In this document: positions 50,457 to 60,551 of the stretch, one piece after another
Layout: each line of letters starts with the position of its first letter
How positions within the stretch are numbered: the first letter of the stretch is position 1
NCBI RefSeq assembly: GCF_002214485.1
Contig: NZ_CP015102.1
Location: 62,001 to 126,000, forward strand
From: Thermococcus pacificus
GTDB taxonomy: Archaea > Methanobacteriota_B > Thermococci > Thermococcales > Thermococcaceae
Reading direction: 5' to 3'
DNA: 64,000 nt
Made by a program: the position numbers and the translations under genes
The notes under the pieces: model-generated
What the model was told of the DNA's origin: nothing
The model's input: only the letters and a program-made list of their open reading frames with translations
The model's database searches: none

Positions 50457-50777
50457 CGGCGGCGGGCTAGGCCGGGGGGTTCGGCGTCCCCTGTAACCGG
50501 AAACCGTCGATATGCCGGGGCCGAAGCCCGGGGGGCGGTTCCCAAATCCAGCGGCAGAAGTCGGGGCATAACGGTGATCCCTCGTCCCGGGGGGCCGGCG
50601 GTGGAGGAGGCGGAGCTGGAGGGCTCCGCTAACCTCCTTTGCCCGCCGAACCCCGCCAGGCCCGGAAGGGAGCAACGGTAGGCGGGACGTGCGGCGCTCC
50701 CGGGGTAGCGGGGGTGAGCGAGCCCCGGTGGAAGCCGCTGGAGGAGGGTTCCCACCCCCGGGCGCGCCCGCCGCCAC
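50457..50777 (+). ncRNA. 7S signal recognition particle RNA
   Basis: A GC-rich region of about 320 bases with the archaeal SRP RNA features. The two ends pair: GGCGGCGGGC (50458-50467) with GCCCGCCGCC (50766-50775). The Alu domain holds TGTAACC near 50490. The S domain has the universal helix 8 (CCAGGCCCGGAAGGGAGCA, about 50657-50675) with a GGAA tetraloop and the asymmetric loop that binds SRP54. The exact ends are estimated from the pairing and the TATA box. It directs ribosomes making membrane proteins to the translocon. Confidence 0.93.
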
Positions 50778-52693: not shown

Positions 52694-52770
52694 GGGGCGG
52701 TAGCTCAGCCTGGGAGAGCGCCGGACTGAAGATCCGGGTGTCGGGGGTTCAAATCCCCCTCGCCCCACCA
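52694..52770 (+). tRNA. tRNA-Phe (GAA), CCA encoded
   Basis: 77 bases. The acceptor stem GGGGCGG pairs with TCGCCCC (one G-U); the D arm is GCTC/GAGC; the anticodon stem CCGGA/TCCGG encloses CTGAAGA, anticodon GAA; the T arm is GGGGG-TTCAAAT-CCCCC. The discriminator is A, and CCA is encoded. No intron. Confidence 0.97.
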
Positions 52771-52782
52771 CTTTCTTGCAAT

Positions 52783-52860
52783 GCGGTGGTAGTCTAGCCT
52801 GGTCTAGGACACCGGCCTTCCAAGCCGGTGACCCGGGTTCAAATCCCGGCCACCGCACCA
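52783..52860 (+). tRNA. tRNA-Gly (TCC), CCA encoded
   Basis: 78 bases, 12 bases after tRNA-Phe. The acceptor stem GCGGTGG pairs with CCACCGC; the anticodon loop CTTCCAA gives anticodon TCC between CCGGC and GCCGG; the T arm is CCGGG-TTCAAAT-CCCGG. CCA is encoded. No intron. Likely co-transcribed with tRNA-Phe because no promoter fits in the gap. Confidence 0.96.
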
Positions 52861-58627: not shown

Positions 58628-59953
58628 TTATCCACCCCCGTAGAGCACTATCCTGACACCGTTACCACCCATGTAAGACCTTACCGTAACCTGCCACGGA
58701 TATATCTCGTAGTAATCGCTCTTAAGGCTCACCAGCAACGTCAGCCTCTCCGGCTTCCCCTTGAGGAGGGCGTACTTGTAGGCCGGGAAGTTGCCGATGT
58801 GGGTCACCCTCTTCCAGCCCGCCAGAGTGGCCCCTCCGGTGTCGTAGAGCACCACCCAGCTGTTGTCCGCCGCCACGAGCTCAACCGTGGACGACAGGTT
58901 GAGGGGCTCGAAGGTTACCCTCAAGAAGTCGCCCTTCACAGTGGCGTTGAGCAGTCTAGCGCCCCCGTTCCCAATTGGCTCGAAGCGCAGGGTGTACTGT
59001 TTTTCATAATTGGCGTATCTTAATCTAATTTTTTCGATTTTCTTCATTGCAAGTTCCGTGTTAATCTCGAAGGAGGAGGTTGAGTATTGAGGAACCCTAA
59101 CGAACTCGGGAAGACGGTAAAGGGTTACCGAGTAGTGGTTCTGGAGATGACCTCCTTTCATAGCGTAGACGCTCAGGGCCTCCTCTATGGATGAGAATTG
59201 ATTGGCAATGGCTACACCAGCAGGGAACCATCCAAAGAGGTACTCGTTCTTGCCTATCTCAATGACCTTGAACCGGGAGCTCTCGTAGGGCGACTCAAGG
59301 TATTGGGTGGCGAACCAGTCGTAAAGCTCCCAGCGGCCGGCCTGGGGGTAGTGAACGGCTAGGAAGGCGTGGCCAACCCCCACAGGAGGGAGGGAACTAA
59401 CGAAGAAGTATTCCGCGGTGACGTTGAACCTCTCATTCACAGCTAAGATAAGGGCGTAGTCCACGAGGGCCCAGTCGCTACACACTCCCCCGTGCTCTAT
59501 TGTGTATGAGGGGAGGTCAACCCTTCCGTCGTGGACGTAGTGAACCTTCTGGAGGAGGAGAGAATAGGCGGTCCCCCTGACGAGCTGGGGTGTTACTTCG
59601 TAGCCTGAGGTCTGTATGCGCTCGATGCTCTCATTTATTATCTCGCCCACATAGGCTCTTACCTCTGGGCTGTGCACATCCTCCCACAGGGCCTCTCCGT
59701 CAAAGCGAACGTAGGGGGGTCGCTCTCTTTCGTCGTCGCCTCCAAAGGAGTGCCATCCGAACTCAACGCTAACGTTGTCCCCGTGCTCCCTCCGATACTC
59801 GATGACTTTTATCGGAGCTGTGAGGACGCCCTTGATACCCCCATCGGGCTTCACTCCGGGAATCATTCTGAGGGCTACGTTGCCCACCACGATGAAGAGC
59901 ACCAGCAGGAGTGCGGTCAGCTTTAACACCCCTCCAACTGGAGACCTCGCCAT
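58628..59953 (-). CDS. membrane-anchored transglutaminase-like (papain-fold) protein
   Basis: About 441 residues. An N-terminal TM anchor (VLKLTALLLVLFIVVGNVALRM) precedes a domain of the transglutaminase/cysteine-protease fold: the nucleophile in HGGVCSDWALVDYALIL, the His in GVGHAFLAVHYP and the Asp in YDWFATQYL give a complete triad. The C-terminal about 150 residues are beta-rich (KQYTLRFEPIGNGGARLLNATVKGDFL, partial) and may bind a cell-surface partner. Probably cleaves or cross-links surface proteins. ATG 59953 follows GGGAGGGCTTGGG; ATG 59974 lacks a ribosome binding site. Confidence 0.83.
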   Translation of the reverse strand: MARSPVGGVLKLTALLLVLFIVVGNVALRMIPGVKPDGGIKGVLTAPIKVIEYRREHGDNVSVEFGWHSFGGDDERERPPYVRFDGEALWEDVHSPEVRAYVGEIINESIERIQTSGYEVTPQLVRGTAYSLLLQKVHYVHDGRVDLPSYTIEHGGVCSDWALVDYALILAVNERFNVTAEYFFVSSLPPVGVGHAFLAVHYPQAGRWELYDWFATQYLESPYESSRFKVIEIGKNEYLFGWFPAGVAIANQFSSIEEALSVYAMKGGHLQNHYSVTLYRLPEFVRVPQYSTSSFEINTELAMKKIEKIRLRYANYEKQYTLRFEPIGNGGARLLNATVKGDFLRVTFEPLNLSSTVELVAADNSWVVLYDTGGATLAGWKRVTHIGNFPAYKYALLKGKPERLTLLVSLKSDYYEIYPWQVTVRSYMGGNGVRIVLYGGG

Positions 59954-59992
59954 CCCAAGCCCTCCCGTGTCCATTAGTTGTATCCCGAAAGT

Positions 59993-60000: not shown

Positions 60001-60024
60001 GCGATGCTGGCGATGTGGGGTTGA

Positions 60025-60080
60025 CCGATGATGAGTGTCATCCCTCCTGAACGGATGAGGAGATTATCCCCACCTGAGGT
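60025..60080 (+). ncRNA. box C/D sRNA in the leader of the next gene
   Basis: Boxes and spacings are canonical. C box ATGATGA is at 60028-60034, then a 12-nt guide (60035-60046), D' CTGA (60047-60050), a 4-nt linker, C' ATGAGGA (60055-60061), a 12-nt guide (60062-60073) and D CTGA (60074-60077). ACC before the C box can pair with GGT after the D box. Both guides should direct ribose methylation opposite their fifth base from D' or D. The D guide can pair with an RNA reading TGGGGATAATC; a similar stretch occurs, from memory and unchecked, in the 5' part of archaeal 16S rRNA. The D box overlaps the ribosome binding site (GAGGTGATT) of the protein gene at 60087. Confidence 0.8.
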
Positions 60081-60086
60081 GATTCA

Positions 60087-60551
60087 ATGCTCGGGTTCCT
60101 CAAGCGGAAGAAGAAGGAAACCTACGGGCCGCTCGTCTACCTGAGTGAGCCCACCATACTCTATCACACCCACACGGAAAGGGCCATCCTCGAGCTCCTC
60201 GAGGAGAAGCTGGGGTCGAACAACTTCGTTGTCCCCTCCGACTACGGCCTCAAGACGACCGACCACCTTATCCCTGAGGCCGAGATATTCGTCGCGATAG
60301 CCGTTATCGGCAAGTTTACCTCCCTCGTTGCCCGCGAGATAAAGATCGCCCAGGAGCACGGGAAGAAGATATACACCCTCGATGTGGCGAGAAAGGGTGA
60401 TGAAATACTCTACATCTTTGAGGAGGGTATTCCCGAGCACATCGAGTGGCTCACCCCGGAGGAGACCCAGAAGCTTTACGCGGCGTTCCGCGGGGAGGAC
60501 TTCTCCGGCTTCATGAAGTTCTTCTTCGGGGACAGAAAAAGGCAGTGGTAA
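60087..60551 (+). CDS. Rossmann-like protein, unknown function (154 aa)
   Basis: Not recognised. A basic N-terminus (LKRKKKETYG) leads to an alpha/beta pattern: VYLSEPTILY, ERAILELLEEKLG, NNFVVPSDYG, AEIFVAIAVIGKFTSLVAREIKIAQEHGK (partial) and KIYTLDVARKGDEILYIF. The run with conserved polar residues at strand ends (EAEIFVAIAVIGKFTS) resembles the TIR/SLOG/deoxyribosyltransferase type of nucleotide-binding fold, but no catalytic residue can be named. ATG follows GAGGTGATTCA, which lies within the 3' end of the C/D sRNA, so expression of the two is physically linked. Confidence 0.75.
   Translation: MLGFLKRKKKETYGPLVYLSEPTILYHTHTERAILELLEEKLGSNNFVVPSDYGLKTTDHLIPEAEIFVAIAVIGKFTSLVAREIKIAQEHGKKIYTLDVARKGDEILYIFEEGIPEHIEWLTPEETQKLYAAFRGEDFSGFMKFFFGDRKRQW

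Follow-up and report, generated by a model that had tools for sequence, protein, structure and literature searches.

The window, that is, the whole stretch of 64,000 nt analysed here, carries a box C/D sRNA gene that runs directly into the start of ORF154, a conserved gene of unknown function (Table 1). The RNA element shows the C, D', C' and D boxes in this order, with both guides within 9–16 nt, and the box order and spacings given in a preliminary description of this DNA were confirmed base for base. Rfam assigns the element to sR55 (RF01307), a Thermococcales box C/D sRNA, with a score of 63.4 bits against a curated cut-off of 35 bits, which rules out a chance C/D look-alike. The copy in the window is like the RF01307 consensus in sequence, boxes and 5' guide, but it has a shorter linker and a diverged 5' half of the D guide. 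Judged by its score and its boxes, the element is a genuine box C/D sRNA, sR55. The TATA-like CTTTTTAA, a predicted promoter element of sR55, would put the transcription start near 60020–60025, close to the C box, and a promoter may also lie within sR55 itself.

Searches with ORF154 against Pfam, NCBIfam and PDB sequences gave no match. Its AlphaFold model (pLDDT 75) returned weak Rossmann and nucleoside deoxyribosyltransferase-like matches (best fold-search E 3.3e-3), which weakly suggest a Rossmann-like, nucleoside deoxyribosyltransferase-like fold. Elsewhere in the window, the archaeal SRP RNA and the adjacent tRNA-Phe and tRNA-Gly genes, at 50460–50773 and 52694–52860, are ordinary.

Table 1. 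Features at the sR55–ORF154 locus (window positions), with the loci of similar sRNA–gene pairs
Feature	Position	Strand	Basis or remark
448-aa gene	58628–59974	-	Pfam and NCBIfam without match
TATA-like CTTTTTAA	59993–60000	+	sequence; centre ~28 bp 5' of the sRNA start
Box C/D sRNA sR55 (RF01307)	60024–60079	+	cmscan 63.4 bits; E 7.6e-14, computed for the window
Attachment-site core in relatives, ACCGATGANGAGTGTCATCC	60024–60043	+	single copy in G000; truncated second copies in 8 relatives
C box ATGATGA	60028–60034	+	sequence
D' guide GTGTCATCCCTC, 12 nt	60035–60046	+	10 bp to own 23S 2516–2525
D' box CTGA	60047–60050	+	sequence
Linker ACGG, 4 nt	60051–60054	+	sequence
C' box ATGAGGA	60055–60061	+	sequence; 1 base off consensus
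D guide GATTATCCCCAC, 12 nt	60062–60073	+	9 bp to own 23S UGGGGAUAA 2538–2546
D box CTGA	60074–60077	+	last 2 bases are the first 2 of the Shine-Dalgarno sequence
Shine-Dalgarno GAGGTGAT	60076–60083	+	complementary to own 16S 3' end
ORF154, 154 aa	60087–60551	+	homologues in 84 of 94 Thermococcales genomes
Other C/D sRNAs sharing D box and Shine-Dalgarno sequence	L101:490–560 (G000:15189–15246), L102–L106, L113–L116

Shared bases and rRNA targets of sR55

The D box CTGA is followed by GGTGAT and then by the ATG of ORF154 at 60087. The Shine-Dalgarno (SD) sequence GAGGTGAT starts inside the D box, and all 8 of its bases pair with the 3' end of the own 16S rRNA (...GATCACCTCCT), which was read directly. 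Five of these eight bases belong to sR55, two as the last bases of its D box and three (GGT, 60078–60080) as part of its terminal stem, in which GGT is the 3' strand opposite ACC at 60024–60026. The overlap of the D box with the ribosome binding site and the ATG 9 bases further, both claimed in the preliminary description, are thus borne out. The geometry at 60024–60087 places a K-turn in the leader that overlaps or adjoins the SD.

A search of both guides against rRNA, which had been suggested as a check, gave matches to 23S rRNA of 10 bp for the D' guide (up to 11 bp in other genomes) and 9 bp for the D guide. The pairing of the D guide to UGGGGAUAA, 22 nt from the D' site, is found in genera g1, g2, g4 and g5 (g1–g6 being genus labels only), and in genus g3 it is mostly lost. 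Under the rule that the fifth base before the box is methylated, with numbering of the own 23S from the start of its Rfam match, 2'-O-methylation is predicted at G2519 (D' guide) and G2541 (D guide). The G2541 site falls within the peptidyl-transferase region of the 23S rRNA, where the GGGGAUAACA segment that contains it is conserved.

Across genera, the D' guide and the 23S rRNA change in concert in the eight genomes compared: the rRNA sequence CAGGGAUGACA pairs with a guide ending in ...CCCT in G000, G019, G005 and G008, and CUGGGAUGACA pairs with a guide ending in ...CCCA in G086, G073, G002 and G012. Since G012 shares its genus label with G005 and G008, more than one guide/rRNA change is likely. 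In a shuffled-guide control, the best match scores were reached by 6/200 and 29/200 shuffles, a modest result, so that the weight for the target rests on the co-variation of the D' guide with the 23S rRNA. This co-variation indicates that sR55 is a working 23S rRNA 2'-O-methylation guide. Two other candidate targets were dropped. Helix h8 of the 16S rRNA was rejected for the D guide, the best 16S matches being short, and positions 1564–1575 of the 23S rRNA, which form 12 contiguous pairs (two of them G-U) with the D' guide in the own genome, were dropped as the D' target because most relatives do not conserve them, unlike the site at 2516.

Conservation, separation and recurrence of the arrangement

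Of 94 Thermococcales genomes, 83 contain sR55 above the cut-off in a covariance-model search, as against 0 of 21 further genomes of the class searched outside the family; these numbers refer to genomes and do not represent independent events. Reading of the flanks showed that 80 of 84 sR55 copies have CTGA or CCGA followed directly by GGTG, with ORF154 starting 9–11 nt beyond the D box. This distance is exactly 9 nt in all 56 home-genus copies. The D box itself is CTGA in 80 of the 84 copies and CCGA in the other 4, and a single C-box variant was seen, in G006. The synteny of sRNA and gene in other Thermococcales, proposed earlier as a further check, is thereby established, and none of the sequence-level findings that had been named as contrary to the earlier reading was made.

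Four genomes carry sR55 and ORF154 apart, with both kept and the boxes of sR55 all intact, and in these ORF154 stands without an sRNA leader. In three of them, all of genus g4 (G075, G079 and G084; loci L107, L108 and L109), a flavodoxin-like gene (Pfam) lies between the two, ORF154 has its own SD (TTGAGGTGATCCA-ATG or CTGAGGTGATTTC-ATG), and no C/D sRNA was found above the separated ORF154. CTGAGGTG or TTGAGGTG is present on either side of the flavodoxin-like insert at these three loci. In the fourth genome, G001, ORF154 lies on a different contig from sR55 and likewise has its own SD (GGGGTGATCTC-ATG). In this sR55, T has been replaced by C at the third position past the D box, giving a GCC/GGC stem, while the coupled copies keep GGT regardless of the 5' side. 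A change from GGT to GGC is what would be expected once the SD constraint is lifted, here in a single case. Survival of both partners after separation means that each function is needed independently and that neither depends on the link; the link has been broken in at least two lineages, with neither part lost.

The pattern of a C box, CTGAGGTG and an ATG recurs in Thermococcales, with no occurrence in the reversed control. Other well-formed C/D sRNAs share their D box with the SD of a NUDIX gene in the home genus, of CobO-type adenosyltransferase, phosphodiesterase and FEN-1 genes in genus g3, and of the RidA gene in some home-genus genomes. A D box also runs into an SD ahead of a 58-aa gene in other C/D families. 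The FEN-1 and RidA sRNAs are present in the own genome and are unfused to these genes, according to pattern searches, which give an incomplete census of its C/D sRNAs. In G005, such sharing was found in 4 of 35 well-formed C/D sRNAs. The genes downstream have no common theme, and the recurrence is consistent with CTGA and GAGGTG having come to be shared for economy several times in evolution.

C/D sRNA genes are known to overlap the ends of neighbouring ORFs frequently, and promoters of their own are rare (PMC7994747). Those that overlap ORF starts (Tripp et al. 2017, as reviewed in PMC7994747), together with the 11 snoRNAs predicted in 5'-UTRs of T. kodakarensis (PMC4247193), resemble sR55 in that the sRNA adjoins or overlaps a downstream start, with presumed co-transcription and release by processing. 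In sR55, however, the SD is built from the D box and the terminal stem, and the spacing is fixed throughout the order; no description of this arrangement was found in the literature.

The 5' end of sR55 as an integration site in relatives

Even among close relatives, the 50 nt that precede sR55 differ strongly. About one third of the copies (~28 relatives in four genera) have a related cassette of ~115 nt directly 5' of sR55, which contains a separate TATA-like sequence and in which the CCNATGA and GGG blocks are invariant (for example, L022:1385–1500); the sR55 of the window has no such cassette in front of it. A riboswitch or other known ncRNA was considered for the cassette and rejected, with no Rfam match and with only 3 pairs, free of compensatory changes, predicted by RNAalifold. 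The cassette looks like the att-side end of mobile elements. A search with a model of it found more copies 12–34 kb from sR55, and in G042 and G043 the distant copies are followed by only the first 17–18 nt of sR55.

The putative attachment-site core comprises the first 17–21 nt of sR55, of which the own genome has one copy and no insert. A pattern search found truncated second copies of the core in 8 genomes. In four of these (G022, G042, G043 and G076), the truncated copy lies upstream on the same contig and in the same orientation, 12.3–46.6 kb from sR55, so that the end of an RNA gene flanks the insertion as a direct repeat; G042 has two truncated copies in tandem. In the other four (G054, G057, G063 and G081), intact and truncated copies are split over contigs. 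The outermost truncated copy keeps the home-genus host promoter (CTAAACCT..AATAA..) in G042, G054 and G057 and the genus g4 host promoter in G076 and G081, and in the same five genomes the intact sR55 is preceded by cassette DNA. As read from these repeats, this is the classical picture of integration at the 5' end of sR55, with attL, attR and a restored target gene, and the position of the promoters indicates that integration swaps the host sR55 promoter for element DNA.

Related tyrosine-recombinase-like genes (46–94% identity, TGARGSEINDLQF motif) lie a few hundred nt past the truncated copies at 6 loci, with PHROG integrase matches at L165 (E 3e-7) and L157 (E 5e-6). A different recombinase is found beside the intact sR55 of G043, its Pfam Phage_integrase match (7e-6) being just below the curated cut-off. 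The insert at this sR55 (L155:846–7297) contains N6-methylase, specificity subunit, AAA ATPase and McrBC genes, a cargo that is defence-like, and the G042 insert contains Prim-Pol, HsdM-like and HsdS-like genes and a second recombinase fragment. A search of IMG/VR with the 19-nt att core matched one contig, about the chance expectation, and no relatives of the integrase were found among plasmid records.

Integration of the pTN3 type into the 5' half of tRNA genes is known to remove the original promoter (PMC5495485, PMC8371274). The events at sR55 are alike in that the 5' end of an RNA gene serves as attB, the gene is restored and its promoter is lost. In contrast to the pTN3 type, the target is a C/D sRNA gene, the shared core is only 17–21 bp long, and in the cases read this core lies ~200 nt outside the integrase ORF, which is unsplit. 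A review of archaeal recombinases does not mention sRNA or snoRNA targets, and a literature search turned up no case of integration into a C/D sRNA gene; such an attachment site is apparently unreported. It would give archaeal mobile elements an additional target that is not a tRNA gene, and it offers one explanation for the differing promoters of conserved sRNA genes among close relatives. In the window, the 448-aa gene separates sR55 from an MBL-like gene, which is the apparent direct divergent neighbour of sR55 in several relatives, suggesting that the promoter flank may have been replaced here as well.

Two probable fates of one transcript

Guide function, separability and the unrelated pairs with the same sharing lead to the reading of sR55 as a guide sRNA whose 3' end is also part of the start site of an mRNA. 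With a probability of about 0.77, the sR55 guide is the 5' part of the ORF154 transcript, its 3' end doubles as the SD of ORF154, and each transcript can meet either fate but not both. The host promoter would start transcription at or just 5' of the C box (more than 90 nt upstream in cassette strains), and a single transcript would run from sR55 on into ORF154, as the short distance and the position of the promoter suggest. Folding of the K-turn and loading of L7Ae, Nop5 and fibrillarin to give the sRNP would then set the limits of the mature sRNA. Trimming past the D box would take off GGTGAT and hence the SD, so that packing as a guide would remove or cover the SD, and transcripts left untrimmed would be translated into ORF154, presumably with no dedicated signal deciding between the two. 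Convenience is the probable origin of the shared bases, CTGAGGTG meeting both needs, and they were then probably locked because both functions constrain them. Conservation of the arrangement in 80/84 copies across the order exceeds what an easily broken convenience would give, and it could reflect a selected coupling. So read, sR55 and ORF154 form a clean, order-wide case of a non-coding RNA and an mRNA competing for the same bases, and the natural separations in G001, G075, G079 and G084 serve as controls that make regulation by a leader C/D sRNA directly testable.

In the preliminary description, the locus was seen as a possible autoregulatory switch tied to sRNP supply. A real C/D sRNA in the ORF154 leader, the overlap of D box and SD, an order-wide geometry and 23S guides have stood, and the switch is unsupported so far. 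In such a dedicated switch, L7Ae or the full sRNP would bind the leader K-turn and repress ORF154 according to the supply of free sRNP proteins, and the arrangement would be kept for regulation. The mechanism is possible, since Sulfolobus L7Ae represses its own and other mRNAs through a leader K-turn beside the SD, with masking of the SD proven for its own mRNA (PMC5539422). The Sulfolobus l7ae and nop5 leaders resemble the sR55 leader in having a K-turn beside the SD, where masking would block translation, but they contain a simple K-turn, whereas a full double-guide sRNA here precedes a non-sRNP gene and the effect of L7Ae is putative. The fixed spacing throughout the order is consistent with a switch, as is the predicted leader fold, which without protein leaves the SD from 60079 on not strongly hidden, and a cis-regulatory role was suggested for some of the 5'-UTR snoRNAs of T. 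kodakarensis (PMC4247193). The published overlaps, 5'-UTR snoRNAs and L7Ae work make a regulatory reading credible, though not new in kind. However, ORF154 is not an sRNP component, the two parts outlive their link, the upstream flank and promoter have been exchanged in about one third of the genomes, and unrelated genes show the same geometry, all of which makes a dedicated switch unlikely.

Also improbable is that sR55 and ORF154 merely abut, with an independent SD and negligible competition, for example through a large excess of transcript or separate sRNA starts. The separability of both parts would agree with this, as would the finding that C/D sRNA maturation requires the K-turn elements alone (PMC7994747). 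The exact spacing in all home-genus copies argues against it, and because the bases are physically shared, trimming at the 3' end of the sRNA must remove the SD.

More doubtful is an extension of the regulatory reading in which sR55 would have three roles, as a guide for the peptidyl-transferase region of the 23S rRNA, as a protein-operated switch of ORF154 and as a dock for promoter-replacing mobile elements; if this were true, mobile elements would take control of a host guide for ribosome modification. Finally, a cis-regulatory K-turn leader that is no methylation guide at all, as its l7ae-like geometry of K-turn and SD might suggest, is very improbable, given that both guides match neighbouring 23S sites with guide/rRNA co-variation and that sR55 persists without an adjoining ORF154.
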